This document shows, in pieces, positions 19,721 to 48,094 of a stretch of DNA of 64,000 nt; position 1 is the first letter of the stretch; every line of letters starts with the position of its first letter. Location: the NCBI GenBank assembly GCA_036345935.2, contig JADWOT020000001.1, forward strand, positions 1,674,001 through 1,738,000, read 5' to 3'. The DNA comes from Taenia hydatigena (Eukaryota; Platyhelminthes; Cestoda; Cyclophyllidea; Taeniidae). A program made the position numbers and the translations under genes. The notes beneath the pieces were generated by a model. That model worked only from the letters and a program-made list of their open reading frames with translations, did no database searches and was not told where the DNA came from.

Positions 19721-20002
19721 TAACTCCTCATCCTTCATCGTCTCCAGTCATCCATTCTTCATTTACACATTCCATCCTCTTATCCATCCTTCCTCCATTT
19801 CAGCATGCGTCCATCAGTCTACCTTTTATCTTCATTCCTCTCTCGCTGCCTTCCGTTATTTTATACCTTGTTAACCAAAAATTTAATTTTTCTTATCATT
19901 TAACCTATTTCATTATCTATTGCTTTTTTTACTGTTTTGTCCTTATTCACTTGCCGTTGTGCCTTCTATCCATCCCATTTGCCAATCCTTTTCCATAGAC
20001 TT
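19721..20002 (+). repeat. Unit U fragment, CATCC-rich section
   Basis: C/T-rich sequence leading to CATTTGCCAATCC near 19977, the motif at which the giant palindrome begins. A diverged match (about 75-80% over some 40 bases) lies just outside the other palindrome end. Confidence 0.6.
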
Positions 20003-23000
20003 TCACCACCCACAGCAGTCTTCTCTCACCGTCGTTTGCAGGCCTTTTGCGCACGCAACTACTGGCACAATGGGACTCACGTTTGCCAAGCAAGTTGCAC
20101 AATTAAATCTGCAACGCATTTTATCTACAAAATAGCTATTTATAACTCTGATAGTAGGCATTGTGTGTTCGCCTGAAATCCCAGCCTGCATTAAGTCCGT
20201 TTCCCTTGATCCAGCCATCCATCGCTCACACATCCTACCTACATTCATCTCTGTGCTCTCCTCATCTTCACCCTTCCACCTACTAAACCATCCACCCATT
20301 CACCCATCCACTGCCTCCATTCAGCACTTAAATGCCTTTCCTCCACCACTTCTTCCATGGCTCCATTTATTTGTCCAGGAGCATTCCTTCTGCTAAGCTC
20401 TACTGCGCCGTCATTAACATCTACTTACAACATTCGGCCAGATGCTACGCCCACCATCAGACCGGACTCGTTTTATGATAGACGGTTATCCCAATTGCCA
20501 AAAGGAATGATCAGAAGCAGGTAAGTGAGGAATATGCACCGTCTTGCTGCTGTCGTACTCGCCGCTTAGCAGTGTGTTCAAACAACAGGGCAGCCAAGTA
20601 GACGGCAGCACATGTGCACGTGGAGGGCGTAAACGAAGACGAAGAGAATGACAAGGGATACAGGGTGGAAGAGGGACACTGCGTTTGGAGTGCATGCAAG
20701 AATGCAAAGAGAAGATTGTGAGGGGCAAGATAGAGGAGGGAGGAGAGTGCTTGTAATGTGGGAAGCACCCTACTGAGGTTATTAAGTAAGACCTGCATGA
20801 CGAGTTGTGTCTTATTTGCTTTCTGCAGTTTCTTTCTCCACTTCTCATGCTATTAGGCAGTGGTGGATGCCCATGTCATCAAAGCCATATGTTTCCTTTC
20901 TAATGCCTGACAATTGGCACTATGTCAGGCGAAGTAAAATGTTGACTTTCAAGGCGTAAAAGACGAAATTAGTAAATCGGTGTTTGTGTGAGTGGACTCG
21001 CACCCAGTCGAGCTGCAAAGAAGGGACATCGAGGCAATGGAGATGCAATGTGCGCTCCTTTAGTGCTGACGTGGATGCGTCTACTGGGTGAGATATGAGG
21101 ACAGACACATGCGTCTCTCATCCCAGTGATGCAGGCACTAATGTGTCCGTGTTAGTTGGATTGGCCTCCAACACTGCACGGCTGAGAAACACATTTGAAT
21201 TCTGCCTTCGTGTGTGTAACAGCAGGTCAACCATCAAAACATTGTGCACATTTTAGAAGTTGGGATGGAAATAGAGCACTTTAGACGTCCACGAGCATAG
21301 CTGTTGTTGGGCAAGCGGCGTGAACTGTGAATGCACTTATTCTACTTTGTGAGAGGAAAAAGCGTTTGTGCGAAGTAAGCAGTGCCAACATAAACAAGGT
21401 TGTTTGGCAAATTTGAACCTTACCTCTTTGTGTAGTGATGAACATTAGTTGGAATCTGCGCCTCACTGGACTCATGTTTTTCGCTGATGTTAGCTACTGA
21501 CTCTGCGTCAAATGCGACACACAAATTCACAAGTGCTAAGGAAAGTGTCATTTGTCTTTAAATTTTGGCGAAATCGGACCACATGAGTCTGGAGAGGCGC
21601 AGAATTCAGCGCACTTTCATCGCTACAAAGTAGGGTGAGATTAAGAACAAACAAAAATAATCATTTACATTGCCACCACTTACTGTTGTGCAGCGCCTTT
21701 TCCTTCGAAAATAGTGGTATTAGAGTGGAAACCTTTTTTTGCAAAAGGCCCCAATTTGTAATCAACAAGCATCCAAAGCCGAACTCTCCAACTTCAACTA
21801 TGCTCGGAGATGTCTGACATGCTCCATTTCCACCCGAACCTGCGAATGGTGCAGAGCGATCTAACACTCGAGCCATTGTCACACATACACACAGGGACAA
21901 TTCAAATGGGCTGACATGCTGTGTAATGCGGGGAGCCAATCAGACCAACGTGGATACGTCAGTGTGTCCATCACTGAGGTGCACCGCACTAACAGATGAC
22001 AAGGAGCCACACAGCTCACCTACTTCACGCAACACATTGTCGGACCGATCGTGCTAGGGACAAAATCGTTGAGGGAACGGCTTTTGTAATCCTAACTTCT
22101 TTTCTACAGAGAAACCGCGTGTCAGTGAAGTGGGCCACTGCTCAGAAGTGTGTTTTGTCGCCAACTTTGGGGATGAATTCTCTTCTGAGCCTCTCACTTG
22201 ACTCGCGCTCTCATACCACAACAGGTCATTGTCAACGATATGTGGACTAGCAGTCGCCTTGAATTTAAGACCAATGAAATCACCGTAGGCGTGCTAGAAT
22301 AGGGACACACGCTGTCTCCATCATTCAGTCAGCTGTCGCGTACACACGCACACACAAGCCCCGTGCGCACCCATCTTGCTTACTTGTACGAGGTCAGTGA
22401 CAAGGGCATCCGTTGTGAAATCGTTCTCTCCCTTCTTAGTCTGCTCGCTCATCGCCTCGTTCTCTGAGGCTCGAACCTGCATTTTGTTGGCCGCTAAAAT
22501 CAACCCAATGCAACCAGAATTCCACACACTGTGGTGGAGTGGTGGGGTAGGGAATGAAGCCACTGCTTGTGGAAGTGGCAAGGTGAGGAAGTGTGTCGGA
22601 CAGAGGACTCGCACAACTTCTCGAGGCTAAAAGTGCTGCTGAAGCGAATGACACATTCACGGTGGATGGAGGAGTGAGAGTTAGGACATCCACACGATTT
22701 GCCAGTGGTTGTGTGGCAAAAGAATCGTGATAGTTAGTGAGAGGAGAATGCTGTGGGTGGTGAAACACTGGAGGAAAGTGACTGGCAAATGAATTGGGTG
22801 CGGTAGAAAACAGCGAGTAGAAGAGGGAAACAACTGCACAACAAGTGGTTTCATGATGAGGAGAATGGAGGGAAATCATTTGAATGTGCGAAGGGGGAAG
22901 GAAGCAATTGGTGGCTTAATGCAAGGAAATAGGATGCGTGACAAGTTAAGTGGAATATTGGATGGGTGGGAAAGAAAGAAAGAAAGAAAGAAAGAAAGAA

Positions 23001-23199
23001 GGAAAGGGAGGCAGAGGGAGAAGGATTGTGAAGGAGGGCACATTGACCGGCATGTGCTGGAATGGTGGAAGGAATGTGAAGACAACGGAAGTGAGAATGC
23101 CGGAATGAATAGATGGGGATGATGGAGAGTTTGTTTGATGGGAAATACTTGGTTGGATGTGTGTCCACTTCCAGGCCTTCCAAGCACCCTAAAGAAAGG
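20003..23199 (+). repeat. Rearranged unit U copy in the left arm
   Basis: Blocks in order: CATCC section (20003-20400), CACGTG-containing block (20400-20830, with GTGCACGTGGAGGGCG near 20612), a block matching 58.38-58.72 kb (20860-21200), two related blocks matching 58.75-59.0 kb (21240-21480 and, reversed, 21600-21950), a block matching 57.4-57.9 kb reversed (22000-22640), and a GATG section (22700-23190). No gene is supported. Confidence 0.65.
22971..23000. repeat. (GAAA)n microsatellite
   Basis: About 7.5 AAAG units. The mirror copy at 45093-45126 has one more unit. Confidence 0.9.
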
Positions 23200-23930
23200 C
23201 GATTAAGCCTGCTAACCAACAATTGCTCTTTCAACATGATGGGTGCACACATCACGTAGTCTAGGTACACACGCCTACTCCGAGTCCACGTACACCCACG
23301 AGTCTGCGTTGTCTTCTCACGCATCCACCTACTCACCTCGATGCCTTCACGACGGTCTCCATCACTTCTCATCTACTTCACCCCACTTCTTAATTTCTCT
23401 TCCAACTTTATTGGGTGCTAATGTGGTTGGTGACTTGGGGCCTGCTTCCATCCCTGACTTTTAACAAATGGATTCGCTAAGTGCTCATTCGAGTGACTCG
23501 TATTGCGCGATCCACCATGTGTTGGTCATCAGCGCTCTCATCGAATGCGCAGATTGTAATTCCTTTCCAAAGAAGACTTCAATGGATGCAGTGACCTCAT
23601 TATGCATTGATGCAGCAGGAACATACTACTCACTACTGTAGAGAGGGTCTGAGTGCCAATTAGCATGGTGCGAAGGTCTTGTCGGTGAGCGAAGGCTTAG
23701 TGTTTACCCACAGAAATATTTGCATAGTTTGGCGGATAAAAAAACGAGACACCGTGTGTCTACACGAGGCTGCCAAGTGCTTTAAAGGAGTAGATGGCCA
23801 CAACGGGGCTTCGTGAACAGATGTGCAGCATTTGGCAATTGACCTCATCGCTGATGAACGCAAGCACAAAATGTATCGACTGAGACTATCATTCACGTAT
23901 GGAATGGCATTACATGGGCCCTGCGTGGAT
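23200..23930 (+). repeat. Dispersed repeat R1, copy 6, and following flank
   Basis: R1 landmarks ACACATCACGTAGTCTAG, CCCACGAGTCTGCG, TGGTTGGTGACTTGGGG and GAGTGACTCGTATTG. It is followed by a flank (23720-23930) that recurs reversed at 61590-61750: TTTAAAGGAGTAGATGG and CGCTGATGAACGCAAGCAC. Confidence 0.7.
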
Positions 23931-24700
23931 CTACGTACTTAGTGGAATGCGGAAGTGGAAGCAGTCGACTCTCACACGGTGCACGCCATGACATCTACTG
24001 GCCACATTACTGGCTGGGCCATCGAATGGCGTCTCCGTGGATGATGGTAAAACGCGAAATCTCCATCTTTCAGTCACTTCTACGCATTTATCTAGTCGAA
24101 TTCATAGCCGAGACTATTAATGGAGGCGCGTAACTTGAGGTTTGGAAGATCGGTGAATGCACTTGACCCACAGGAGAGCTATGACGGTGGCTGTAGCGCT
24201 GTGCAAAGGAATTAGTCTAGTCTTCTCGCTTAATCAGATGCTGACCCACGACTGCAAATTCACGGAATATTTTGGAACGCGCATCGAACAACGTCTACTT
24301 GCCACTACTGCGTACATTTTTGCATCACAACTGCTACATTCTGCCATGTACTTGATCACAGCAAATGGGGACTGGAGAGTTGGTGAGGCAATCTCGAGCA
24401 CCACATTATGTGCAGTGGAGAGTTGGCAGATGTACAGGGTTCGAAGATGCCATAAAGGACATGCAGACTTCTGGATGGAGTGGACGGGAGCATCCGCAAA
24501 GAAGACACCTCACTACGTCTGCAAAAACACGCCACAATCTCTGCGTCGAATTCTAAAGTCACCACAACTGGTAGCTCTGCATTCACTCTTTGCTATAGTG
24601 AACCTCGTGCTTGAGTGGTCGCAGCTTACGCAAAAGTGCTCGAATCAATCCTTCAATCGCACAATCTCATGCCTTACTTTGTCGTCATGCGGATGCAAAT
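23931..24700 (+). other. Upstream remnant of FnIII cassette F and unassigned sequence
   Basis: 23931-24060 matches 16330-16460 upstream of gene C. The promoter and signal exon expected next are missing. They are replaced by sequence in which I recognise nothing, covered by a 242-codon open frame from 24157 to 24885 that runs on into FnIII intron 1 relic sequence. Confidence 0.55.
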
Positions 24701-25820
24701 TCGTGCATCCTGCAAGCGTAATAAGTGTCCCTCAACAGAAACACAGCTGGGGAGTGCCAGAAGTGACTTACCTACTGTCACACATTTGGACCGCATCACA
24801 TCACAGTCAAATTAAATTGGCGCCCCTGAGTAGACTAATTCAATCCTTTGCATTGTCTCTTACCTCTCGATCCACCAGTAAGTGAAGTAATTAACGTGAG
24901 TCTCTCAACTCACTCGCGGTCACATTTTATGCATTCGCCCTGATGCTGGGACGAATGAAACTTCATTACTCTCTCCACACTAATGCAGACATATCTTTGC
25001 GGTTCCATTTGTGCAGACTCTGCAGCTCCTTAGAACGTGAAAATTAGCACAATCAATGCTTACAAGGTGTGACGAGTGAATCATTGGCTATAGTGTTCCT
25101 AGGGAAGTCGAAAATCCTCAGGTCAGCTTTACCCACCTCACCAACACGGAAAATTACACTATCGCGAATTTAAAGCCATATCAAATCATCTTTGCTATTG
25201 TTTGTACGCGCATTGAGAAGAAGGATGCAGATGGCCGTGAACACTGCGCCTACAGTGATAAGGTGAGAACAACTGCATTACGTGAGGAAGGATGTGTGTA
25301 CCTTATCATTTGAAAGTAAGCAGGACTAATGGAAGCATTCCTACAGTGACACCCATTCATTACTACTGCTCAAATGATTTCGCTGATTCGGTCTACAGTA
25401 TTTCTTGCCATTAAATCTACTGCAGGCATTTGCATCAGACTTGCCTTATGAGGCAGCGCAAAACGCCTTAACATGCACTTCCACCCGTTTGTTGACAGGT
25501 GTAAGGTAACACACGTAAGGAAACGAATTCATTGTTTTGGACTGAAGGGGAGAGCTGGTTAGTCAGAGCTGCGAATTACGTAAGGACTCCAAAATCACAA
25601 ACAATCGCAGGTCAGCCCACACTTCTACTACCACAACGCAACACCTATTCTACCTTCTCCAAAGGCCTCGACCCAATCCTTGCGTTTGCCAAGTACGCTC
25701 TCAATTCCTATTGCAGGCTTCATTGCTCCGAATATTGCTCGATGTGATAACTGCTTGAATATACTCTATACAAGCATGAGCAACTGCAGTAAACAATCGC
25801 TAAATGATAAATAAAATGAA
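24700..25820 (+). pseudogene. FnIII antigen pseudogene F (left arm)
   Basis: The intron 1 relic starts near 24700: CCAGAAGTGACTTACCTACTG, then CATTGTCTCTTACC...GATCCACCAGTAAGTG. The FnIII exon begins at 25017 after TTTGTGCAG and ends at 25293. It has several stops and frame changes, yet the piece with YTIANLKPYQIIFAIVC and a 13-residue inter-cysteine loop is readable. A tail exon starts near 25548 after CTGAAG and lacks the hydrophobic anchor segment. A polyadenylation-like GATAAATAAAATG is kept near 25807. No signal exon is present, so the copy is not functional. An almost identical copy is mirrored at 42.27-43.38 kb. Confidence 0.85.
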
Positions 25821-25839
25821 CACTTTGCGATTTCGGCCG

Positions 25840-26110
25840 GTGTAAATCAGTGATGAGTGCAGCCCTCAAGTCACCAACCGCATTTGCATCCGCATTGATA
25901 TAGAAGAGGAATAAAGAGGTGGAATGGAAAAGACGCGAAATGATGGAGACAGTTGTGATGTCACAGGGATCAGTAAGCGAATGTGCGAGAAGCCAAGGCG
26001 GAATGGTTGGCGTACGTTGGCCCGGTGTAGACGAGTATGAATAAGCCATGCGTTCTGTGCATGCAGCATGGTGAAGCAGCAATCGTAATTTGGCATGCTT
26101 GACTGTCTCT
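25840..26110 (-). repeat. Dispersed repeat R1, copy 7
   Basis: Short reverse R1 (CGGTGTAAATCAGTGATGAGTGC to AATTTGGCATGCTTGACTG) directly following dead gene F, the same placement as after A and C. Confidence 0.7.
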
Positions 26111-28600
26111 CCCCACGATGCCAAGAAGACATTGGTTTGCCACCAATCCACCCACCTCTTCACCCATCAAACTAACTCTTCATTCCCCATCATCTTCACC
26201 CATCCATTTTTCTGTCACGCTTCCATCCTCCCATCCATCCTCCCAACATTACAATACGCGTTCATCAATCCATCATCAATCCACACAGCATTCCATTTAG
26301 CTTATCATTCATCCCAATCCCACACATCCATTCATTCTTCTGGCACTTTTACCATCTTTCACTGCTCATTTCGCCCTACACATAATTCATTTTGCCAGTC
26401 ATATTCGTCCAGTCATTCACCACCCTCAGCAAACTCCTCTCGCCATCAGTCATGGTCCATTTGTCCGCGTAACGGTACAATGCGACCCACCTTTGCCAAG
26501 CCGGTGAACAAAATGAACTCTGCGCCACATTTTATAAGGGATGCCCATCCCTAATCCCCATACTAGGCATCATTTATTCAACTTGAGTTTCAGCCCACAT
26601 TAGGTCTGTACTCCTTGATCCAGCTCTCTATCACTTACGCATCATAACTACATTCATCCAGCCATGTGCCCTCCTTTTATTCATCCCTCTTTCCATCCTT
26701 CCACCCATTCATCTATCCATTCCTCCCATTCGCATTTATTTGCCTCTCCTCCACCACTGCTTGATGCCACTATTTACTTGAGCACAGGCTTTCCTTCTGC
26801 CAAACTCTATTGCACCGTCCATAACAGCATGTGACCAGATGCGCAACATTCAGCGAAAGGCCACACCCACCATCGGACCGGACTATTCATCCGATTGTTT
26901 AAGATCCCAAATGTAAAGAGGAATAATCAGAAGTTGAAAAATGAGCGTGTGCACCATCTTGCTGCTGTCGTGTTCATCGCTTAGCAGCAAGTTTAAGCAT
27001 CAAAGGGGTCAAGTAGGCGGAGGCGCATATGCACGTGGAAGGAGTGGAATAGGACGAAGAGCTTGACAAGAAAGGCAAGGCGGAAGAGGTTTCCGTGCGC
27101 TTGGAATGCATAAAAGAAGAGAAAGGGAAGAGTAGGAAGACAAGAAAAGGGAAGGCGACCAAAATTTGGAGCATAAAAAGCAAATAAACAAAGAGTAGCA
27201 GGAGCAAGAGGAAGTAAAGACGCTCACTACTTGGAATGGAGCCAACAACACTAATCATGTGTGGCAGTCATCCGTCTCCACGCGCTGTTCCGCAGGTCCA
27301 CTCTTAACACACTCAACAATTGCAGCGGCGAAGAGAGCGCAGACGTAGTGCAGACTTTTTACCATTTTTCTGTATTGGCAAGAGTGTGTTACGTTGTGTC
27401 AGTGGTCGCGTAGGCGAAAGCGCAACCACAGTCGATAGTGAGAGAATGCTGCTGTGGACGACGTAAGACAGGAAAACAGTTTCTGGCATGTTTGTTGATT
27501 GTGGCGCAAAGTGGACGGAAAATGTGGGAACTAGGCACAAAAATGAAACCACGATAGAGTGGAGAGATGGATGAAGGAAGTTGTAGGTGGATAAATGTGT
27601 GGAAATAAGATTTATGTTAGATGAAATAGAGTGAGATAAAGATGGGAGATGGAGAAGAGGAAGGGAAGGATTGAAATAAATAACACGCATGGCCGAACTA
27701 ACTGTTCCTCTCCTTCCTCCGTAAAGGTTCCATTTGCTTCACAAGCACTGTTAGCCACCAGAAGTCATTTAATTCCTCCTTACGGCACACTTCCCCGCCT
27801 TGCTGCTTCCACAGACAATTACATTCCTCCCTACTCTACCACCTCACTACAGCGCGCCAGTTCGGTTAAATAAGTCGATTTGAGCAGCCAACTAACGGCA
27901 ATTTTGCATTTTAGAGAACGCGGTGGCGAGCGAGTAGCCCAACCAGAGAGAAGACGGCAGCCTTACGGATGTTCTCGTAACAGACCTCGTACAAGCAAGC
28001 AAGATGGGTGCGTGCGGGGTCTGTGTTTGCGTGTGTGTGCGTATACATAACAGCTGGCTAGATAATGGAGACAGCAGAGGATTCAATTCCGGCACGCTTG
28101 CGGTGAGTTGATTGACTTGAAACCCGATACAACTTCTAGTCCACCTGCCAATGACAAAAGCCAACCATGTTTTGGGAGGCGAGTCAATTGAGAGGATCAA
28201 AGGAGTATTCATCTTGCGAAATTGCGAAAAAGCGCACTTCCCAGTGGACACACACTTCACTGACATCAGGTTCTTACTGTGCAAAAGAAGTTAGGAGTAT
28301 GAAGTTGTCCCACAACGATTTAACGTCCAGCACGATTGGTCTGACAATTTGTCATGTGAAGTAAGTAGGTGGACTGTAAGGCTCACTGACATCAGTTATT
28401 GCAGTGCACCTTAGCCTCCTCCTCTTCCTTATCAGACGATAGGTGGTGACTAGCAGTCGATAACTTAACATGCGCACATCGATGGCAGAGATTCGCCTCT
28501 CGCCATCCTCTTCCTCACCTCCTTCCTCTTCCCTTGCAACAATGAATGACACAAAAGTCAATTTCGTGACCAGGAAATGAAGACTTCGTAGAAGGAAACA
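26111..28600 (-). repeat. Repeat unit U, copy in left arm
   Basis: Opposite orientation to the copy at 1-2094 and the same order of blocks: CATCC section 26111-26800; CACGTGGAAGG block 26820-27260; GCGCAGACGTAGTGCAGAC block 27290-27470; GATG section 27540-27680; CACAAGCACTGTTAGCC block 27700-27990; then 28000-28600 with CAAGATGGGTGCGTG, CGCTTGCGGTGAGTTG and GATTCGCCTCTCGCC. The open frames in it are mirrored in the right arm only because the arms are near identical. Confidence 0.7.
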
Positions 28601-28860
28601 GTCTCATGCATTGCGGCCTGTTAAATGCCGCTTTGACGATTTTGTGGTTTTATAAAAGAAGACACCATTCTAAAAGAAGAGATGCAGTTGAAAATTATGA
28701 AGGTATGAGAGGCGGTCCTATTGAGTAGGTGCAAGTTAATCAATCAATGTCTTCCTAGTACATGTATATACGCAACTCTACATTGTCTTCCACAACTTTC
28801 ACGTTCACCTATTCTCGTCCTTTCTGTTTTCTCTGCTCTTTCCTTTACCGTCCAACCCGC
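28601..28860. other. Unassigned sequence in left arm
   Basis: Nothing recognised. It contains the short inverted motif TCTTCTTTT/AAAAGAAGA near 28655-28680. Confidence 0.4.
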
Positions 28861-30060
28861 CCTCCAGGTAAACATATTCAACTAATATTTTGCCGTCTCC
28901 ATTTGCATTTTAATCGTCTTCCCCGCCTTCCAAGTGCACGAGTTCCTCCCTCTTCTTCTTCTTATCCATTGTTCGCTTTTTCGTTCTCAATATCTTCGCT
29001 TCTGCCTCACACGCAGCTTTCCCGTCTTCCATGTCTTCCAAGTACGCGTGCTCCTCGTTCTTCCCTTCTCCTCCACTCTTCCACGCGCGTAAAAGGCTGG
29101 ATTAAAGGACTGATGAATGCAATGATGCTTGAGTAAGTTAATGAACAAGACTAACGCTTGCCAAGAGTCCATTAGCATCAAGGGCTTGCAGACGAGTATA
29201 TGGACGAATAACACCAAGTCACGGAGGACGTTGGTTTTGCTGAATATGTAGCTGCTTCCTAAAACACAAGGAATCCGTGTACTTAGAAGGCATGGAAGAG
29301 GAAACGGCGAGGAGGATGGGAAGAGGGGGAGGCGATAGACGCATACTTGGAAGACATGAGAGTTGGTGAAGTGCATTTAAGAGGTAACGCGAAGTAGAAA
29401 GGACACGTTTACTTGGATAATGGTGTTTCATTCTCGTGCACCTATCTCAGTGAATCGCCTTTTGTACCATCATTTTTATTCCACTCTTTTGTTCATGAAT
29501 GATCTTCCTTCGGACCTGCGGTAAGCTGCTGCCCATGAGTGTGTCATTTTCTTGTGCTGCTTTTTTGCCAATCGACTCTTCTCCATCCTCTACACCTGTC
29601 AAACCCTTTTGCATCAAAAATTGGTCTGTCTTTAGAGGCAACTGGGTCCATTCTGAATTAGTTTTGGGCTTAGAAGATGGAGACAAGATAGTAATGCAAG
29701 GAGATACGTGCACCAGAAAGGTAGGCAGGAGGATAGAGCGAAGAGCAGGGGATGCAAGGAGGGCGGGGTACACGTGCATTAGCATGACAGGTAAGCAAAT
29801 GTAGAAGAGATTAAAAGAGGCGGGAAGAACGAGAAACATGTGCTTTTGGAAGGCGTGGAAGACCATAAAGCGAAGGGTGGATTTGAATAAAAGAGGGAGA
29901 AAAACGATTACGTAGGAGATATCGAAAACATTTAGGCAAGGCTTGGAGGAGCAGGGAAGAAAGGAAATTAGGGAGACAATGAACCGGAGTAATAGAGAAA
30001 GTGCATTAAAATGGAGAGTGGGCAGGAAAGATGGATGGGTGCAATTCACTTGGATATATG
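28861..30060. repeat. Imperfect array of about 100-bp CCAAGTGCACG-type units
   Basis: Cores of the form CTTCCAAGTRCRCG or the reverse complement recur at intervals of roughly 70-130 bases. Examples are near 28864, 28932, 29036, 29283, 29348, 29407, 29708, 29772, 29840 and 30050, separated by CTTCTTC/CCTCC-rich or complementary sequence. The orientation changes near 29.1-29.25 kb. The CACGTG-containing block of repeat unit U (27.0-27.1 kb) looks like two of these units. A 216-codon open frame (30097-29447, minus) runs through the array and is probably compositional. Confidence 0.5.
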
Positions 30061-31870
30061 ATGGGTGACTAGATCGAGGGGTACTTGAATATGGCACACA
30101 TGAATACAGGGTGAATATGTAATGCAGGTTTACTTCTGCACCTTTGCTGAGACCCGCAGTAAGTCATGGAGTCTCACGCCTCCGCGTCTCGCCACCATAA
30201 ACAAGTGACACGAGAAAGACACAGCTACAACCGTCTGCTAAAATCACTTTGCGGCGAGCAATGAGGCGAAGCGGAGCAAGGCGTTTGCAGTGCAAATTCG
30301 TTGTATTGGGGATGAGCAGAGGGCGAATGAGCGAAAGGCGCTCCACCCACCACACCCAATGTCCGTCTTTTCCTACTTGTCTTGGAATGCAGAGTACTCC
30401 AACCTTTGCTCGAACTTTCTCTCAACACTCATCCGCCTTGAGGAACTAGTAGTAGGATCACGTTGTCGCCTTTAGAAGCTACCACCCTTTCCGGGCGCTT
30501 TGGCCTCCTATTTTACAAGCATGCAACACCGAGCACATTTTACAAGCATACGACGCTTAAGAAAGCAGGAGACATGAAAAATCTTGCCCACTCAAATTTG
30601 ATCAGCACTTTGAGATGAACTCTGCGAGAAGTCATTATTTCTAATTGTGGTACATAAGCCTTCACTCTGAGTTGAAGTGAAATGATAGGAAAGTAGGCCC
30701 TTGCATAGTAAGAAGGTACCTTGTTGAACCGACGTGCAGCCTCTACGCAATCGCTCCCATAAGCCTCGATGTGTTTTGCACTTGTTAGCCTACACACCCT
30801 CATCCACTTACACTGGTGACATTTCTGATTTATCTAAATCCACGCATCACTATCACCTACATCATTCAGAGACGAATGAACTTGGAAACGTTGTCTATTG
30901 TTAGGACGAAGTCATGTGGGAAGAAACGGAATGTTCGAGATAAAATGCCATGGGAAGCGCCTGACTCAGGCCAAACTACTGATTTAGGAAGCAAATTGTG
31001 ACGTCATGTCCCACCAGGAAAGATGTAAATTAATTGGATTGAAAAAATTAAAACAGAATAGCTTTGCTGTCAAATAGACTTGATAAAAGAAGACAAGTTC
31101 GTCGTGCCCTGACAGCATTTACTAAGAGATAGGTGTTGGGCAAGTGCATTGAGCTGAGTAAAATAGCTTCGGAGGCATTCAATGGTGGGACGCAGTGAGA
31201 TGCACACGATGGCAAACGATTGCTTCATCAGAAAAAGGAATAAAACTTGTCACACAGTCAAAAATATATCTTCTGTAATCTAAAGTTAGCGAAGGATGAG
31301 CGGTTGGAAGGAGGAGGGCGCGTAGCTCTCGTGTGCGCATGCGTGGAGAGGACTGTCACGTGAGACGATTCCCGCTCTTTGGTCTAGTGGCTTCGTCTAC
31401 GCAAGTAGCAATCTCGAGTTGACACACCCTACTTTGCAAGTACCGACAAAACCATGCGAAGGATTAATAACTTATTGAAGACTACAAGAATGATTTCGCA
31501 GCATGTTCGGTTAACCACTATGTTAGATGGTTTAGAAATGAGTAACATGTGCGCAACTGTGCTGGCATTGGCAATGATTTGCTTATAATGGTGGCGTGAC
31601 AGGTGAAAGTTAACGACAAGTATAGCAATGATTTCTGGGAGCGATTGAGTAAAATGTCTCGAGTCTGTCGCATCGCATAGTGGTCAGTGTTGTCTCTGCT
31701 TCGAGTAAACTACCTTAAACTGCCTTTCAGTTGTATATTTAAAAGACTCAAACACTTCTCCCGTTTATTTCTTATTGACATTTCGGCTTAGGAGTTCTAA
31801 GCTAATACAAATGGCTATAGAACAGAAGAAATATTTGATTTTCATGCAATTAGTAAAATTTTGTTGGAAG
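30061..31870. other. Unassigned low-repeat part of left arm
   Basis: I recognise no gene or RNA. Base composition is more even than in the U blocks. Open frames are all under 90 codons. A short direct repeat TTTTACAAGCAT occurs at about 30511 and 30538. Confidence 0.45.
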
Positions 31871-31871
31871 A

Positions 31872-35762: not shown

Positions 35763-38700
35763 CAGTAAAGTGAGCTGCGCCAACACATGACTGTCCTCCG
35801 TCCGACTTCATTCCCTCCCTTCGGCGTTGTCTTACCTCTCCATTCGTCTAATACCGCTTCGCTATTTGTTTGTTCTTGCCACGAATTGGACAGTCTGTCA
35901 TGTTTACTGTCGGATCTCACAGGCGGAAATGGCCTTGTAGTATGGAGATGGGAAAGCATTTCATTTTCGATCTTTGATGTGTGCGATGGAACGCGAAATA
36001 TCATTCTGGCACATGGTGGAAGCACAATGAGATTAAGGATATCTATGCTCCATAATTCTGTCCATATGTCCTGAAATTGAATACCTGCTTCCGGACTCAT
36101 TTGCTCACGACCAGAAGACGGTCGCTCCGAATGGAAATGAAACGAGGGAGCTCCTTCGTGCCTCCTGGCTGAGTTAATGCTGACAGTTTCTGAATCAGAG
36201 ACAAATCTCAATCTTCCAACAAAATTTTACTAATTGCATGAAAATCAAATATTTCTTCTGTTCTATAGCCATTTGTATTAGCTTAGAACTCCTAAGCCGA
36301 AATGTCAATAAGAAATAAACGGGAGAAGTGTTTGAGTCTTTTAAATATACAACTGAAAGGCAGTTTAAGGTAGTTTACTCGAAGCAGAGACAACACTGAC
36401 CACTATGCGATGCGACAGACTCGAGACATTTTACTCAATCGCTCCCAGAAATCATTGCTATACTTGTCGTTAACTTTCACCTGTCACGCCACCATTATAA
36501 GCAAATCATTGCCAATGCCAGCACAGTTGCGCACATGTTACTCATTTCTAAACCATCTAACATAGTGGTTAACCGAACATGCTGCGAAATCATTCTTGTA
36601 GTCTTCAATAAGTTATTAATCCTTCGCATGGTTTTGTCGGTACTTGCAAAGTAGGGTGTGTCAACTCGAGATTGCTACTTGCGTAGACGAAGCCACTAGA
36701 CCAAAGAGCGGGAATCGTCTCACGTGACAGTCCTCTCCACGCATGCGCACACGAGAGCTACGCGCCCTCCTCCTTCCAACCGCTCATCCTTCGCTAACTT
36801 TAGATTACAGAAGATATATTTTTGACTGTGTGACAAGTTTTATTCCTTTTTCTGATGAAGCAATCGTTTGCCATCGTGTGCATCTCACTGCGTCCCACCA
36901 TTGAATGCCTCCGAAGCTATTTTACTCAGCTCAATGCACTTGCCCAACACCTATCTCTTAGTAAATGCTGTCAGGGCACGACGAACTTGTCTTCTTTTAT
37001 CAAGTCTATTTGACAGCAAAGCTATTCTGTTTTAATTTTTTCAATCCAATTAATTTACATCTTTCCTGGTGGGACATGACGTCACAATTTGCTTCCTAAA
37101 TCAGTAGTTTGGCCTGAGTCAGGCGCTTCCCATGGCATTTTATCTCGAACATTCCGTTTCTTCCCACATGACTTCGTCCTAACAATAGACAACGTTTCCA
37201 AGTTCATTCGTCTCTGAATGATGTAGGTGATAGTGATGCGTGGATTTAGATAAATCAGAAATGTCACCAGTGTAAGTGGATGAGGGTGTGTAGGCTAACA
37301 AGTGCAAAACACATCGAGGCTTATGGGAGCGATTGCGTAGAGGCTGCACGTCGGTTCAACAAGGTACCTTCTTACTATGCAAGGGCCTACTTTCCTATCA
37401 TTTCACTTCAACTCAGAGTGAAGGCTTATGTACCACAATTAGAAATAATGACTTCTCGCAGAGTTCATCTCAAAGTGCTGATCAAATTTGAGTGGGCAAG
37501 ATTTTTCATGTCTCCTGCTTTCTTAAGCGTCGTATGCTTGTAAAATGTGCTCGGTGTTGCATGCTTGTAAAATAGGAGGCCAAAGCGCCCGGAAAGGGTG
37601 GTAGCTTCTAAAGGCGACAACGTGATCCTACTACTAGTTCCTCAAGGCGGATGAGTGTTGAGAGAAAGTTCGAGCAAAGGTTGGAGTACTCTGCATTCCA
37701 AGACAAGTAGGAAAAGACGGACATTGGGTGTGGTGGGTGGAGCGCCTTTCGCTCATTCGCCCTCTGCTCATCCCCAATACAACGAATTTGCACTGCAAAC
37801 GCCTTGCTCCGCTTCGCCTCATTGCTCGCCGCAAAGTGATTTTAGCAGACGGTTGTAGCTGTGTCTTTCTCGTGTCACTTGTTTATGGTGGCGAGACGCG
37901 GAGGCGTGAGACTCCATGACTTACTGCGGGTCTCAGCAAAGGTGCAGAAGTAAACCTGCATTACATATTCACCCTGTATTCATGTGTGCCATATTCAAGT
38001 ACCCCTCGATCTAGTCACCCATCATATATCCAAGTGAATTGCACCCATCCATCTTTCCTGCCCACTCTCCATTTTAATGCACTTTCTCTATTACTCCGGT
38101 TCATTGTCTCCCTAATTTCCTTTCTTCCCTGCTCCTCCAAGCCTTGCCTAAATGTTTTCGATATCTCCTACGTAATCGTTTTTCTCCCTCTTTTATTCAA
38201 ATCCACCCTTCGCTTTATGGTCTTCCACGCCTTCCAAAAGCACATGTTTCTCGTTCTTCCCGCCTCTTTTAATCTCTTCTACATTTGCTTACCTGTCATG
38301 CTAATGCACGTGTACCCCGCCCTCCTTGCATCCCCTGCTCTTCGCTCTATCCTCCTGCCTACCTTTCTGGTGCACGTATCTCCTTGCATTACTATCTTGT
38401 CTCCATCTTCTAAGCCCAAAACTAATTCAGAATGGACCCAGTTGCCTCTAAAGACAGACCAATTTTTGATGCAAAAGGGTTTGACAGGTGTAGAGGATGG
38501 AGAAGAGTCGATTGGCAAAAAAGCAGCACAAGAAAATGACACACTCATGGGCAGCAGCTTACCGCAGGTCCGAAGGAAGATCATTCATGAACAAAAGAGT
38601 GGAATAAAAATGATGGTACAAAAGGCGATTCACTGAGATAGGTGCACGAGAATGAAACAGCATTATCCAAGTAAACGTGTCCTTTCTACTTCGCGTTACC

Positions 38701-41700
38701 TCTTAAATGCACTTCACCAACTCTCATGTCTTCCAAGTATGCGTCTATCGCCTCCCCCTCTTCCCATCCTCCTCGCCGTTTCCTCTTCCATGCCTTCTAA
38801 GTACACGGATTCCTTGTGTTTTAGGAAGCAGCTACATATTCAGCAAAACCAACGTCCTCCGTGACTTGGTGTTATTCGTCCATATACTCGTCTGCAAGCC
38901 CTTGATGCTAATGGACTCTTGGCAAGCGTTAGTCTTGTTCATTAACTTACTCAAGCATCATTGCATTCATCAGTCCTTTAATCCAGCCTTTTACGCGCGT
39001 GGAAGAGTGGAGGAGAAGGGAAGAACGAGGAGCACGCGTACTTGGAAGACATGGAAGACGGGAAAGCTGCGTGTGAGGCAGAAGCGAAGATATTGAGAAC
39101 GAAAAAGCGAACAATGGATAAGAAGAAGAAGAGGGAGGAACTCGTGCACTTGGAAGGCGGGGAAGACGATTAAAATGCAAATGGAGACGGCAAAATATTA
39201 GTTGAATATGTTTACCTGGAGGGCGGGTTGGACGGTAAAGGAAAGAGCAGAGAAAACAGAAAGGACGAGAATAGGTGAACGTGAAAGTTGTGGAAGACAA
39301 TGTAGAGTTGCGTATATACATGTACTAGGAAGACATTGATTGATTAACTTGCACCTACTCAATAGGACCGCCTCTCATACCTTCATAATTTTCAACTGCA
39401 TCTCTTCTTTTAGAATGGTGTCTTCTTTTATAAAACCACAAAATCGTCAAAGCGGCATTTAACAGGCCGCAATGCATGAGACTGTTTCCTTCTACGAAGT
39501 CTTCATTTCCTGGTCACGAAATTGACTTTTGTGTCATTCATTGTTGCAAGGGAAGAGGAAGGAGGTGAGGAAGAGGATGGCGAGAGGCGAATCTCTGCCA
39601 TCGATGTGCGCATGTTAAGTTATCGACTGCTAGTCACCACCTATCGTCTGATAAGGAAGAGGAGGAGGCTAAGGTGCACTGCAATAACTGATGTCAGTGA
39701 GCCTTACAGTCCACCTACTTACTTCACATGACAAATTGTCAGACCAATCGTGCTGGACGTTAAATCGTTGTGGGACAACTTCATACTCCTAACTTCTTTT
39801 GCACAGTAAGAACCTGATGTCAGTGAAGTGTGTGTCCACTGGGAAGTGCGCTTTTTCGCAATTTCGCAAGATGAATACTCCTTTGATCCTCCCAATTGAC
39901 TCGCCTCCCAAAACATGGTTGGCTTTTGTCATTGGCAGGTGGACTAGAAGTTGTATCGGGTTTCAAGTCAATCAACTCACCGCAAGCGTGCCGGAATTGA
40001 ATCCTCTGCTGTCTCCATTATCTAGCCAGCTGTTATGTATACGCACACACACGCAAACACAGACCCCGCACGCACCCATCTTGCTTGCTTGTACGAGGTC
40101 TGTTACGAGAACATCCGTAAGGCTGCCGTCTTCTCTCTGGTTGGGCTACTCGCTCGCCACCGCGTTCTCTAAAATGCAAAATTGCCGTTAGTTGGCTGCT
40201 CAAATCGACTTATTTAACCGAACTGGCGCGCTGTAGTGAGGTGGTAGAGTAGGGAGGAATGTAATTGTCTGTGGAAGCAGCAAGGCGGGGAAGTGTGCCG
40301 TAAGGAGGAATTAAATGACTTCTGGTGGCTAACAGTGCTTGTGAAGCAAATGGAACCTTTACGGAGGAAGGAGAGGAACAGTTAGTTCGGCCATGCGTGT
40401 TATTTATTTCAATCCTTCCCTTCCTCTTCTCCATCTCCCATCTTTATCTCACTCTATTTCATCTAACATAAATCTTATTTCCACACATTTATCCACCTAC
40501 AACTTCCTTCATCCATCTCTCCACTCTATCGTGGTTTCATTTTTGTGCCTAGTTCCCACATTTTCCGTCCACTTTGCGCCACAATCAACAAACATGCCAG
40601 AAACTGTTTTCCTGTCTTACGTCGTCCACAGCAGCATTCTCTCACTATCGACTGTGGTTGCGCTTTCGCCTACGCGACCACTGACACAACGTAACACACT
40701 CTTGCCAATACAGAAAAATGGTAAAAAGTCTGCACTACGTCTGCGCTCTCTTCGCCGCTGCAATTGTTGAGTGTGTTAAGAGTGGACCTGCGGAACAGCG
40801 CGTGGAGACGGATGACTGCCACACATGATTAGTGTTGTTGGCTCCATTCCAAGTAGTGAGCGTCTTTACTTCCTCTTGCTCCTGCTACTCTTTGTTTATT
40901 TGCTTTTTATGCTCCAAATTTTGGTCGCCTTCCCTTTTCTTGTCTTCCTACTCTTCCCTTTCTCTTCTTTTATGCATTCCAAGCGCACGGAAACCTCTTC
41001 CGCCTTGCCTTTCTTGTCAAGCTCTTCGTCCTATTCCACTCCTTCCACGTGCATATGCGCCTCCGCCTACTTGACCCCTTTGATGCTTAAACTTGCTGCT
41101 AAGCGATGAACACGACAGCAGCAAGATGGTGCACACGCTCATTTTTCAACTTCTGATTATTCCTCTTTACATTTGGGATCTTAAACAATCGGATGAATAG
41201 TCCGGTCCGATGGTGGGTGTGGCCTTTCGCTGAATGTTGCGCATCTGGTCACATGCTGTTATGGACGGTGCAATAGAGTTTGGCAGAAGGAAAGCCTGTG
41301 CTCAAGTAAATAGTGGCATCAAGCAGTGGTGGAGGAGAGGCAAATAAATGCGAATGGGAGGAATGGATAGATGAATGGGTGGAAGGATGGAAAGAGGGAT
41401 GAATAAAAGGAGGGCACATGGCTGGATGAATGTAGTTATGATGCGTAAGTGATAGAGAGCTGGATCAAGGAGTACAGACCTAATGTGGGCTGAAACTCAA
41501 GTTGAATAAATGATGCCTAGTATGGGGATTAGGGATGGGCATCCCTTATAAAATGTGGCGCAGAGTTCATTTTGTTCACCGGCTTGGCAAAGGTGGGTCG
41601 CATTGTACCGTTACGCGGACAAATGGACCATGACTGATGGCGAGAGGAGTTTGCTGAGGGTGGTGAATGACTGGACGAATATGACTGGCAAAATGAATTA

Positions 41701-42264
41701 TGTGTAGGGCGAAATGAGCAGTGAAAGATGGTAAAAGTGCCAGAAGAATGAATGGATGTGTGGGATTGGGATGAATGATAAGCTAAATGGAATGCTGTGT
41801 GGATTGATGATGGATTGATGAACGCGTATTGTAATGTTGGGAGGATGGATGGGAGGATGGAAGCGTGACAGAAAAATGGATGGGTGAAGATGATGGGGAA
41901 TGAAGAGTTAGTTTGATGGGTGAAGAGGTGGGTGGATTGGTGGCAAACCAATGTCTTCTTGGCATCGTGGGGAGAGACAGTCAAGCATGCCAAATTACGA
42001 TTGCTGCTTCACCATGCTGCATGCACAGAACGCATGGCTTATTCATACTCGTCTACACCGGGCCAACGTACGCCAACCATTCCGCCTTGGCTTCTCGCAC
42101 ATTCGCTTACTGATCCCTGTGACATCACAACTGTCTCCATCATTTCGCGTCTTTTCCATTCCACCTCTTTATTCCTCTTCTATATCAATGCGGATGCAAA
42201 TGCGGTTGGTGACTTGAGGGCTGCACTCATCACTGATTTACACCGGCCGAAATCGCAAAGTGTT

Positions 42265-43383
42265 CATTTTATTTATCATTTAGCGATTGTTTACTGCAGT
42301 TGCTCATGCTTGTATAGAGTATATTCAAGCAGTTATCACATCGAGCAATATTCGGAGCAATGAAGCCTGCAATAGGAATTGAGAGCGTACTTGGCAAACG
42401 CAAGGATTGGGTCGAGGCCTTTGGAGAAGGTAGAATAGGTGTTGCGTTGTGGTAGTAGAAGTGTGGGCTGACCTGCGATTGTTTGTGATTTTGGAGTCCT
42501 TACGTAATTCGCAGCTCTGACTAACCAGCTCTCCCCTTCAGTCCAAAACAATGAATTCGTTTCCTTACGTGTGTTACCTTACACCTGTCAACAAACGGGT
42601 GGAAGTGCATGTTAAGGCGTTTTGCGCTGCCTCATAAGGCAAGTCTGATGCAAATGCCTGCAGTAGATTTAATGGCAAGAAATACTGTAGACCGAATCAG
42701 CGAAATCATTTGAGCAGTAGTAATGAATGGGTGTCACTGTAGGAATGCTTCCATTAGTCCTGCTTACTTTCAAATGATAAGGTACACACATCCTTCCTCA
42801 CGTAATGCAGTTGTTCTCACCTTATCACTGTAGGCGCAGTGTTCACGGCCATCTGCATCCTTCTTCTCAATGCGTGTACAAACAATAGCAAAGATGATTT
42901 GATATGGCTTTAAATTCGCGATAGTGTAATTTTCCGTGTTGGTGAGGTGGGTAAAGCTGACCTGAGGATTTTCGACTTCCCTAGGAACACTATAGCCAAT
43001 GATTCACTCGTCACACCTTGTAAGCATTGATTGTGCTAATTTTCACGTTCTAAGGAGCTGCAGAGTCTGCACAAATGGAACCGCAAAGATGTCTGCATTA
43101 GTGTGGAGAGAGTAATGAAGTTTCATTCGTCCCAGCATCAGGGCGAATGCATAAAATGTGACCGCGAGTGAGTTGAGAGACTCACGTTAATTACTTCACT
43201 TACTGGTGGATCGAGTGAAACGACAGAAGGTAAGAGACAATGCAAAGGATTGAATTAGTCTACTCAGGGGCGCCAATTTAATTTGACTGTGATGTGATGC
43301 GGTCCAAATGTGTGACAGTAGGTAAGTCACTTCTGGCACTCCCCAGCTGTGTTTCTGTTGAGGGACACTTATTACGCTTGCAG
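42265..43383 (-). pseudogene. FnIII antigen pseudogene F' (right arm)
   Basis: Mirror copy of pseudogene F. The FnIII exon starts at 43066 after TTTGTGCAG and runs down to 42790, with the same stops. The intron 1 relic extends to about 43380. Near 43213-43225 it carries 12 bases absent from the left arm, within the CGTTTCACTCGATCC stretch that other family members also have. The deletion is therefore in the left arm. Non-functional like F. Confidence 0.85.
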
Positions 43384-45092
43384 GATGCACGAATTTGCAT
43401 CCGCATGACGACAAAGTAAGGCATGAGATTGTGCGATTGAAGGATTGATTCGAGCACTTTTGCGTAAGCTGCGACCACTCAAGCACGAGGTTCACTATAG
43501 CAAAGAGTGAATGCAGAGCTACCAGTTGTGGTGACTTTAGAATTCGACGCAGAGATTGTGGCGTGTTTTTGCAGACGTAGTGAGGTGTCTTCTTTGCGGA
43601 TGCTCCCGTCCACTCCATCCAGAAGTCTGCATGTCCTTTATGGCATCTTCGAACCCTGTACATCTGCCAACTCTCCACTGCACATAATGTGGTGCTCGAG
43701 ATTGCCTCACCAACTCTCCAGTCCCCATTTGCTGTGATCAAGTACATGGCAGAATGTAGCAGTTGTGATGCAAAAATGTACGCAGTAGTGGCAAGTAGAC
43801 GTTGTTCGATGCGCGTTCCAAAATATTCCGTGAATTTGCAGTCGTGGGTCAGCATCTGATTAAGCGAGAAGACTAGACTAATTCCTTTGCACAGCGCTAC
43901 AGCCACCGTCATAGCTCTCCTGTGGGTCAAGTGCATTCACCGATCTTCCAAACCTCAAGTTACGCGCCTCCATTAATAGTCTCGGCTATGAATTCGACTA
44001 GATAAATGCGTAGAAGTGACTGAAAGATGGAGATTTCGCGTTTTACCATCATCCACGGAGACGCCATTCGATGGCCCAGCCAGTAATGTGGCCAGTAGAT
44101 GTCATGGCGTGCACCGTGTGAGAGTCGACTGCTTCCACTTCCGCATTCCACTAAGTACGTAGATCCACGCAGGGCCCATGTAATGCCATTCCATACGTAA
44201 ATGATAGTCTCAGTCGATACATTTTGTGCTTGCGTTCATCAGCGATGAGGTCAATTGCCAAATGCTGCACATCTGTTCACGAAGCCCCGTTGTGGCCATC
44301 TACTCCTTTAAAGCACTTGGCAGCCTCGTGTAGACACACGGTGTCTCGTTTTTTTATCCGCCAAACTATGCAAATATTTCTGTGGGTAAACACTAAGCCT
44401 TCGCTCACCGACAAGACCTTCGCACCATGCTAATTGGCACTCAGACCCTCTCTACAGTAGTGAGTAGTATGTTCCTGCTGCATCAATGCATAATGAGGTC
44501 ACTGCATCCATTGAAGTCTTCTTTGGAAAGGAATTACAATCTGCGTGTTCGATGAGAGCGCTGATGACCAACACATGGTGGATCGCGCAATACGAGTCAC
44601 TCGAATGAGCACTTAGCGAATCCATTTGTTAAAAGTCAGGGATGGAAGCAGGCCCCAAGTCACCAACCACATTAGCACCCAATAAAGTTGGAAGAGAAAT
44701 TAAGAAGTGGGGTGAAGTAGATGAGAAGTGATGGAGACCGTCGTGAAGGCATCGAGGTGAGTAGGTGGATGCGTAAGAAGACAACGCAGACTCGTGGGTG
44801 TACGTGGACTCGGAGTAGGCGTGTGTACCTAGACTACGTGATGTGTGCACCCATCATGTTGAAAGAGCAATTGTTGGTTAGCAGGCTTAACCGCCTTTCT
44901 TTAGGGTGCTTGGAAGGCCTGGAAGTGGACACACATCCAACCAAGTATTTCCCATCAAACAAACTCTCCATCATCCCCATCTATTCATTCCGGCATTCTC
45001 ACTTCCGTTGTCTTCACATTCCTTCCACCATTCCAGCACATGCCAGTCAATGTGCCCTCCTTCACAATCCTTCTCCCTCTGCCTCCCTTTCC

Positions 45093-45093
45093 T

Positions 45094-45125
<32 letters not shown>

Positions 45126-45126
45126 T
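45093..45126. repeat. (TTTC)n microsatellite
   Basis: About 8.5 TTCT units, one more than the mirror copy at 22971-23000. Confidence 0.9.
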
Positions 45127-48094
45127 CCCACCCATCCAATATTCCACTTAACTTGTCACGCATCCTATTTCCTTGCATTAAGCCACCAATTGCTTCCTTC
45201 CCCCTTCGCACATTCAAATGATTTCCCTCCATTCTCCTCATCATGAAACCACTTGTTGTGCAGTTGTTTCCCTCTTCTACTCGCTGTTTTCTACCACACC
45301 CAATTCATTTGCCAGTCACTTTCCTCCAGTGTTTCACCAACCACAGCATTCTCCTCTCACTAACTATCACGATTCTTTTGCCACACAACCACTGGCAAAT
45401 CGTGTGGATGTCCTAACTCTCACTCCTCCATCCACCGTGAATGTGTCATTCGCTTCAGCAGCACTTTTAGCCTCGAGAAGTTGTGCGAGTCCTCTGTCCG
45501 ACACACTTCCTCACCTTGCCACTTCCACAAGCAGTGGCTTCATTCCCTACCCCACCACTCCACCACAGTGTGTGGAATTCTGGTTGCATTGGGTTGATTT
45601 TAGCGGCCAACAAAATGCAGGTTCGAGCCTCAGAGAACGAGGCGATGAGCGAGCAGACTAAGAAGGGAGAGAACGATTTCACAACGGATGCCCTTGTCAC
45701 TGACCTCGTACAAGTAAGCAAGATGGGTGCGCACGGGGCTTGTGTGTGCGTGTGTACGCGACAGCTGACTGAATGATGGAGACAGCGTGTGTCTCTATTC
45801 TAGCACGCCTACGGTGATTTCATTGGTCTTAAATTCAAGGCGACTGCTAGTCCACATATCGTTGACAATGACCTGTTGTGGTATGAGAGCGCGAGTCAAG
45901 TGAGAGGCTCAGAAGAGAATTCATCCCCAAAGTTGGCGACAAAACACACTTCTGAGCAGTGGCCCACTTCACTGACACGCGGTTTCTCTGTAGAAAAGAA
46001 GTTAGGATTACAAAAGCCGTTCCCTCAACGATTTTGTCCCTAGCACGATCGGTCCGACAATGTGTTGCGTGAAGTAGGTGAGCTGTGTGGCTCCTTGTCA
46101 TCTGTTAGTGCGGTGCACCTCAGTGATGGACACACTGACGTATCCACGTTGGTCTGATTGGCTCCCCGCATTACACAGCATGTCAGCCCATTTGAATTGT
46201 CCCTGTGTGTATGTGTGACAATGGCTCGAGTGTTAGATCGCTCTGCACCATTCGCAGGTTCGGGTGGAAATGGAGCATGTCAGACATCTCCGAGCATAGT
46301 TGAAGTTGGAGAGTTCGGCTTTGGATGCTTGTTGATTACAAATTGGGGCCTTTTGCAAAAAAAGGTTTCCACTCTAATACCACTATTTTCGGAGGAAAAG
46401 GCGCTGCACAACAGTAAGTGGTGGCAATGTAAATGATTATTTTTGTTTGTTCTTAATCTCACCCTACTTTGTAGCGATGAAAGTGCGCTGAATTCTGCGC
46501 CTCTCCAGACTCATGTGGTCCGATTTCGCCAAAATTTAAAGACAAATGACACTTTCCTTAGCACTTGTGAATTTGTGTGTCGCATTTGACGCAGAGTCAG
46601 TAGCTAACATCAGCGAAAAACATGAGTCCAGTGAGGCACAGATTCCAATTAATGTTCATCACTACACAAAGAGGTAAGATTCAAATTTGCCAAACAACCT
46701 TGTTTATGTTGGCACTGCTTACTTCGCACAAACGCTTTTTCCTCTCACAAAGTAGAATAAGTGCATTCACAGTTCACGCCGCTTGCCCAACAACAGCTAT
46801 GCTCGTGGACGTCTGAAGTGCTCTATTTCCATCCCAACTTCTAAAATGTGCACAATGTTTTGATGGTTGACCTGCTGTTACACACACGAAGGCAGAATTC
46901 AAATGTGTTTCTCAGCCGTGCAGTGTTGGAGGCCAATCCAACTAACACGGACACATTAGTGCCTGCATCACTGGGATGAGAGACGCATGTGTCTGTCCTC
47001 ATATCTCACCCAGTAGACGCATCCACGTCAGCACTAAAGGAGCGCACATTGCATCTCCATTGCCTCGATGTCCCTTCTTTGCAGCTCGACTGGGTGCGAG
47101 TACACTCACACAAACACCGATTTACTAATTTCGCCTTTTACGCCTTGAAAGTCAACATTTTACTTCGCCCGACATAGTGCCAATTGTCAGGCATTAGAAA
47201 GGAAACATATGGCTTTGATGACATGGGCATCCACCACTGCCTAATAGCACGAGAAGTGGAGAAAGAAACTGCAGAAAGCAAATAAGACACAACTCGTCAT
47301 GCAGGTCTTACTTAATAACCTCAGTAGGGTGCTTCCCACATTACAAGCACTCTCCTCCCTCCTCTATCTTGCCCCCCACAATCTTCTCTTTGCATTCTTG
47401 CATGCACTCCAAACGCAGTGTCCCTCTTCCACCCTGTATCCCTTGTCATTCTCTTCGTCTTCGTTTACGCCCTCCACGTGCACATGTGCTGCCGTCTACT
47501 TGGCTGCCCTGTTGTTTGAACACACTGCTAAGCGGCAAGTACGACAGCAGCAAGACGGTGCATATTCCTCACTTACCTGCTTCTGATCATTCCTTTTGGC
47601 AATTGGGATAATCGTCTATCATAAAACGAGTCCGGTCTGATGGTGGGCGTAGCATCTGGCCGAATGTTGTAAGTAGATGTTAATGACGGCGCAGTAGAGC
47701 TTAGCAGAAGGAATGCTCCTGGACAAATAAATGGAGCCATGGAAGAAGTGGTGGAGGAAAGGCATTTAAGTGCTGAATGGAGGCAGTGGATGGGTGAATG
47801 GGTGGATGGTTTAGTAGGTGGAAGGGTGAAGATGAGGAGAGCACATGGATGAATGTAGGTAGGATGTGTGAGCGATGGATGGCTGGATCAAGGGAAACGG
47901 ACTTAATGCAGGCTGGGATTTCAGGCGAACACACAATGCCTACTATCAGAGTTATAAATAGCTATTTTGTAGATAAAATGCGTTGCAGATTTAATTGTGC
48001 AACTTGCTTGGCAAACGTGAGTCCCATTGTGCCAGTAGTTGCGTGCGCAAAAGGCCTGCAAACGGCGGTGAGAGAAGATTGCTGTGGGTGATGA

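Follow-up and report, generated by a model that had tools for sequence, protein, structure and literature searches.

We analysed a stretch of 64,000 nucleotides (the window) from the tapeworm Taenia hydatigena, which a search of the genome (306,030,797 bp in 1,354 contigs) placed at positions 1674001-1738000 of contig JADWOT020000001.1 (C1). The window contains a palindrome of 28 kb (P1) with two near-identical inverted arms around a spacer, and several copies (G1 to G7) of a small gene with an FnIII domain; P2 to P5 denote other inverted pairs on C1. BLAST self-comparison of the window is dominated by one inverted match between 19944-32321 and 48151-35762 (99.451% identity over 12,395 columns), whose outermost part of approximately 57 bp, beyond 20003 and 48094, shows distinctly lower similarity (the best local alignment there matches at 38 of 48 ungapped positions). 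The palindrome and the zones within its arms are as follows, in window coordinates:

20003..32321, + strand: palindrome arm A (BLAST self-match and closer alignments)
32322..35761, no strand: spacer, 3,440 bp (alignment of the arms)
35762..48094, - strand: palindrome arm B, the inverted copy of arm A (BLAST self-match and closer alignments)
20003..23894, + strand: outer zone of arm A, 25 substitutions (0.64%) and a GAAA unit (arm alignment)
23895..32134, + strand: near-identical tract of arm A, substitutions at 25208, 28191 and 29423 and two indels in 8.24 kb (arm alignment)
35949..44198, - strand: near-identical tract of arm B (arm alignment)
32135..32321, + strand: inner edge of arm A, 3 substitutions in 187 bp (arm alignment)

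The arms are approximately 99.7% identical over 12.3 kb and differ by 31 or 32 substitutions, depending on which of two aligners is used, most of them transitions (26 of 31 or 27 of 32), and by three indels (the GAAA unit, 12 bp and 2 bp). Because of the length and identity of this match, chance is excluded as its origin, and P1 has the configuration of large palindromes, i.e. inverted arms of about 99% identity or more around a spacer. A first-pass annotation made from the sequence alone had described two such 12.3-kb arms with coordinates that are correct within a few bases, including the outer ends at 20003 and 48094, and the shift in coordinate sum that it reported (from 68097 to 68083) is accounted for by the indels (4+12-2=14). 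Its boundaries of the unique spacer likewise hold within a few bases, the length of 3442 bp being slightly too high. The microsatellite unit and the 12-base indel that it listed are both present, together with the 2-bp indel that it did not list, and the many substitutions that it mentioned are found in the outer third of the arms and not along the remaining arm length.

Divergence between the arms is thus zoned. From the outside to the inside, there are 25 substitutions in 3.9 kb, one in 1.3 kb, two in 6.9 kb and three in the last 190 bp, which corresponds to 0.64% in the outer zone, approximately 0.04% in the middle and 1.6% at the inner edge. An interval of low rate was sought by a scan, which selected 23894-32135, with three substitutions inside and a log-likelihood gain of 22.3 that was reached by none of 2000 uniform random placements. 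The three stretches have a GC content of 0.474, 0.468 and 0.452 and CpG observed/expected ratios of 0.65, 0.85 and 0.76. The zoned divergence therefore does not correspond to one duplication followed by uniform mutation, and it provides the tract identity by which converting palindromes are recognized; the 8.2-kb near-identical tract would represent a conversion tract, produced by one long event or by several.

Sister palindromes and probable exchange between inverted copies

The first-pass annotation considered a structure of this size exceptional, a view that does not stand: the 294 kb of C1 around the window (C1:1574001-1868000) hold four large near-identical inverted pairs, each with arms of 6 kb or more and an identity of 97% or more, namely P1, P2, P3 and P5.

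C1:1795702-1822516: P2, inverted pair, arms 11.7 kb, 72 substitutions, spacer 3.4 kb
C1:1753321-1772033: P3, inverted pair, arms 6.3 kb, 101 substitutions, spacer 6.1 kb
C1:1828223-1845059 (outer end approximate): P5, inverted pair, 6.55 kb at 99.85%
near C1:1633174-1661818: P4, older inverted pair, about 94%

Among pairs of at least 1 kb and at least 95% identity in these 294 kb, six are inverted and two are direct (42.4 versus 6.6 kb; not all are independent). The survey was confined to FnIII-linked stretches, namely C1 around the window and one stretch of contig C4. The 10-kb C4 stretch was selected for two FnIII matches of equal score and opposite orientation, and the one such stretch examined proved palindromic nearly throughout, with a centre of approximately 50 bp. 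Its two sides show 14 differences over the 4.96 kb of arm covered, and this palindrome may extend further. Two equal-score FnIII matches in opposite orientation also lie 9 kb apart at C10:8899369-8908642, possibly a further palindrome.

P1, P2 and P3 all show zoned divergence together with a rise in the innermost 500 bp. Interval scans of P2 and P3 yielded gains of 26.1 and 27.3, compared to null maxima of 10.9 and 10.3 (100 placements each). In P2 the inner rise comes down to six differences within roughly the final 20 bp and may reflect the breakpoint. Descent of P1 and P2 from one ancestral palindrome was considered and rejected, as all 23 matches (E 1e-10) between the region around P2 and that around P1 lie beyond the right arm of P2; the P2 arms are unrelated to those of P1. 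A half copy of P2 at C1:1854499-1859764 comprises an arm and part of the spacer only, and we set it aside as proof of conversion because, lacking the second arm, it may predate the palindrome.

In P5, identity changes abruptly inside one collinear inverted homology. A stretch of 6,554 columns at 99.85% is followed by a collinear continuation at 68.5% (356/520; score 327, best of 100 shuffles 37), a value that supersedes a figure of 71.3%, which took in approximately 75 bp of the near-identical part.

P3 occurs a second time at C1:2028358-2046187 (P3'), and the spacers of the two copies are 99.79% alike (13 of 6120 positions differ, 0.21%). The four arms were compared after columns with a gap in any arm had been dropped, which includes approximately 1 kb where one P3' arm is shorter. 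Among 214 variable gap-free columns, 106 single out one P3' arm and four its other arm, 47 and 12 single out the respective P3 arms, 31 keep arm identity across copies, nine group the arms within a copy, and five cross. These columns lie in blocks: the outer 3 kb hold 104 of the 106 columns specific to the one P3' arm and 17 of the 31 that keep arm identity, the middle 1.5 kb hold 33 of the 47 specific to one P3 arm, the next 1.5 kb contain two variable columns, and the last 165 bp or so contain 14 columns in which each arm agrees with its counterpart in the other copy and differs from the opposite arm (L=L', R=R', L not R). At the inner edge the arms thus differ by approximately 8% in both copies, and they are identical next to it. 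From this pattern it follows that edge differences predating the split of P3 and P3' adjoin homogenised sequence, and it is on P3/P3' and P5, not on P1, that the argument about the age of the arm likeness would rest. P3 is also part of a larger inverted duplication (C1:2022001-2046411 and C1:1745593-1779209, mostly 91-99%), which is a paralogue or the other haplotype.

FnIII genes, arm contents and flanks

The gene found in several copies in the window consists of a 70-bp signal-peptide exon, an intron and an FnIII exon, with exon ends derived from splice signals. Pfam fn3 scored above the cut-off in all three intact exons (among eight window proteins scanned), and in G1 to G3 a serine/threonine-rich stretch is followed by a hydrophobic tail (G2 seen incompletely).

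16669..17500, + strand: G3, exon 1 (signal peptide) 16669-16738, exon 2 (FnIII) 17195-17500 (splice signals, Pfam)
14281..15086, - strand: G2, exon 1 15017-15086, exon 2 (FnIII) 14281-14568 (splice signals, Pfam)
49085..49848, - strand: G5, exon 1 49779-49848, exon 2 (FnIII) 49085-49372 (inverted relative of G3 across the palindrome)
14714..15313, - strand: inner tract of the G2/G3 inverted pair, 600 bp, about one difference to 16442-17041 (alignment)
11021..11620, - strand: outer tract of the G2/G3 inverted pair, 98.7-100% to 18983-19582 (alignment)
25017..25293, + strand: decayed FnIII exon 2 (G4) in arm A, with in-frame stops and a frameshift (translation)
42790..43066, - strand: the same decayed FnIII exon in arm B (translation)
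18931..20002, + strand: left outer flank, in which an X repeat leads towards the Y repeat of the arm (position 20003 crossed by the alignments of three paralogous stretches)
48095..48151, - strand: right outer flank, approximately 57 bp resembling a diverged edge of the X/Y repeat (score 45, best of 100 shuffles 46)

The genes G2 and G3 are arranged head to head, and the inner tract covers their upstream region, exon 1 and part of intron 1. Between the two near-identical tracts, in a part that includes exon 2, identity falls to 74.6% (788/1057; score 632, best of 20 shuffles 43), and beyond the outer tract it is 79.7% (365/458; score 399 versus 41 in shuffles). The FnIII exons of the two genes are 71-72% alike and 56% identical in protein, with a synonymous divergence (dS) in exon 2 of 0.62. 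Judging from these alignments, the mosaic is the pattern expected from patchwise conversion between inverted copies. The FnIII exons look constrained because the ratio of nonsynonymous to synonymous divergence (dN/dS) in exon 2 is 0.34-0.56 in ten pairs (whole-exon averages); positive selection, which was considered as well, receives no support from these values, which are averages only. With one FnIII exon as query against the genome, all 150 scored candidates (150 of 458) matched, down to 27% identity, and the weaker matches may be other FnIII proteins.

Within P1 itself, six-frame Pfam scans of 20003-35001 at E 0.1 found no known protein family, and an Rfam search of the window returned no family. 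We thus rejected an intact gene in the arms, as there is no Pfam family and the FnIII exon is broken in both arms; genes without known domains are still possible. Because arm A shows only a decayed gene, upkeep of the arms appears to follow incidentally from their proximity and inverted arrangement and not from selection on an arm gene.

At the left end of P1, three paralogous stretches in the window align across the junction at 20003 (a fourth spanning row is the arm B mirror of one of them), and the order of the X and Y repeats therefore looks old; the stretch at 10534-11671 is strong to about 19.7 kb and weaker beyond. None of the paralogous stretches among the window self-matches aligns across the right junction. 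At a greater distance from the arms, G3 and G5 are related in inverted orientation with 65-77% identity, so that an older inverted relationship surrounds P1. The outer end of P1 possibly lies within an older inverted repeat.

The spacer has one full-length copy in the genome and 70 partial matches at 65-79% (among the 40 scored of 354 candidates). Within the same set, 58 of the 71 listed matches lie on contig C3, at 0.77-10.3 Mb, which suggests that pieces of the spacer belong to a chromosome-biased dispersed repeat. The right end of the spacer (35131-35624) is a weak direct relative (70-73%) of the inner end of arm A (31655-32156). The arm piece 20500-21500 has two full-length genome copies (100 and 99%), its other matches being partial (40 scored of 64 candidates).

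Origin of the palindrome

We consider a real inverted duplication, situated in a repeat-rich stretch with secreted FnIII genes and homogenised by arm-to-arm (ectopic) gene conversion, to be the best explanation of P1, with a probability of roughly 0.73. The palindrome is present in the assembly, its divergence is zoned and sister palindromes lie nearby; in P5 and G2/G3 the inverted homology contains abrupt changes of identity, and in P3/P3' identity changes in blocks. Arm-to-arm conversion was among the options of the first-pass annotation, together with an amplification intermediate and an artefact, and it is the best supported of these by the zoning of P1 to P3, the step in P5, the P3/P3' blocks and the G2/G3 mosaic. 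P1 might have formed by repair of a break through copying from an older inverted repeat on the outside, a more speculative step given the weak evidence from the outer repeat, and its inner end might have been closed by non-homologous joining; significant homology was sought at the inner ends and no shared sequence was seen. Repeated arm-to-arm conversion would afterwards have produced the near-identical tracts. A function of P1 would not be needed, as the arms carry a relic.

Several observations weigh against this explanation. P1 is known from the assembly alone, and it has no outside copy by which it could be dated; the argument from old edges rests on P3, and the edge differences could stem from the joining event instead. 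Homology between the two flanks strictly outside the arms does not reach significance (score 45, against 46 for the best of 100 shuffles), an initial test (score 52, best of 20 shuffles 37) having included a few arm bases; the match nonetheless sits at the boundary and in register. Self-matches of the window (n=172, those of arm B dropped) are inverted and direct in equal number (86 each). P3' stops at a run of 100 N, so that it may represent the other allele instead of a paralogue, and the single-arm blocks in P3 could have arisen by conversion from a third copy, although sequence would have moved between copies whichever the source of the blocks.

If P1 were a recent single inverted duplication whose arms differ by later mutation alone, without conversion, its high overall arm identity would be expected, and the half copy of P2, with an arm and part of the spacer only, would fit as well. 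Paralogues span the left junction of arm A three times and the right one not at all, which would suit a newly copied arm B. Such a history is nevertheless unlikely in view of the uneven divergence along the arms, the identity steps within the inverted homology of P5 and G2/G3, and the blocks in P3/P3'. Similarly improbable is an assembly artefact, either a fold-back or two haplotypes joined head to head, which the first-pass annotation had also raised. P1 is seen in assembled sequence, in which the middle of the arms could have been blurred by polishing or by reads assigned to the wrong arm, and the difference between the arms (0.26%) is close to that between the P3 and P3' spacers (0.21%), which may be allelic; the C4 palindrome, being nearly spacerless, has the shape that a fold-back would take. 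However, the sequence past the arms differs between the left and right sides, and this, together with the single full copy of the spacer among the 40 candidates scored, makes head-to-head haplotypes a poor fit. The two full copies of the arm piece 20500-21500 argue in the same direction, as does the absence of N from the surrounding 264 kb (C1:1574001-1838000), the window itself consisting of A, C, G and T only. Furthermore, the differences between the arms are rich in transitions and include indels of 4, 12 and 2 bp, they extend 3.9 kb from the outside and 0.19 kb from the inside and thus not one read length each, and P3 occurs twice with the same arm-specific inner edges. Misassembly of P1 is therefore disfavoured.

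Comparison with known systems

The cluster genes are laid out like the taeniid oncosphere antigens EG95, TSOL16 and TSOL18 (PMC2671473, PMC2706984; statements on these and all other papers cited refer to excerpts of the texts). G2, G3 and G5 show a signal-peptide exon followed by an FnIII exon; exon 1 measures 70 bp here and corresponds to sites 5-74 of the eg95 alignment, and exon 2, with 306 bp in G3, compares to sites 699-1004, while a hydrophobic tail further on is seen here in G1 to G3. This is a likeness of layout: no sequence match to a named oncosphere antigen was obtained in a protein search, which returned the window's own protein only, or in a PDB search, which returned general FnIII proteins. 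The 150 exon matches (150 of 458 scored) contrast with the few Eg95 genes of Echinococcus granulosus, for which four genes (PMC8894454) or seven isolated members (PMC2671473) are described. The published T. hydatigena assembly covers 91% of an estimated 338 Mb and shows expanded TSOL16B and Tsol15 oncosphere families (PMC8384839), and EG95 is apparently absent from the 1.26-Gb genome of Spirometra (PMC4265353). A search of the genome analysed here for COX1 returned no match.

It is conceivable, though rather doubtful at present, that serial palindromes drive growth and change of this antigen-like family, with inverted copies trading sequence and thereby keeping their signal-peptide exons and the regions upstream alike (as in G2/G3) while the FnIII exons stay apart, and with long arms serving as conversion templates across the cluster and on other chromosomes.

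Inverted arms that are kept alike, with conversion proposed as the cause, are also known from Caenorhabditis, where inverted paralogues resemble each other more within than between species (PMC1803023). That locus has arms of 2,207 bp with genes and a spacer of 126 bp, in contrast to the 12.3-kb arms with a relic and the 3.4-kb spacer of P1. The palindromes of the mammalian X and Y chromosomes share with P1 multi-kilobase inverted arms of more than 99% identity, a spacer and conversion (PMC8981503, PMC3403216, PMC3723533), and in human P6 minimum conversion tracts have a mean length of 2,068 bp and a maximum of 9,023 bp (PMC3723533), which is comparable to the 8.2-kb tract of P1. They differ from P1, whose arms yielded no gene other than a decayed one and are patchy in their identity. 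In the PMC literature, a scope outside which most subscription journals lie, we found no report of such palindromes in flatworms.

The best-known converting palindromes lie on sex chromosomes, and their presence there is attributed to a missing recombination partner. Tapeworms are hermaphrodite. If our interpretation is true, the presence of several palindromes on one stretch of a chromosome of a probably hermaphrodite animal, and of one beside an FnIII gene on another chromosome, would mean that a missing partner is not required, and would provide a mechanism by which a gene family with the layout of vaccine antigens could expand. The structure of P1 is of a kind already known, its setting is unexpected, and P1 belongs to a series.

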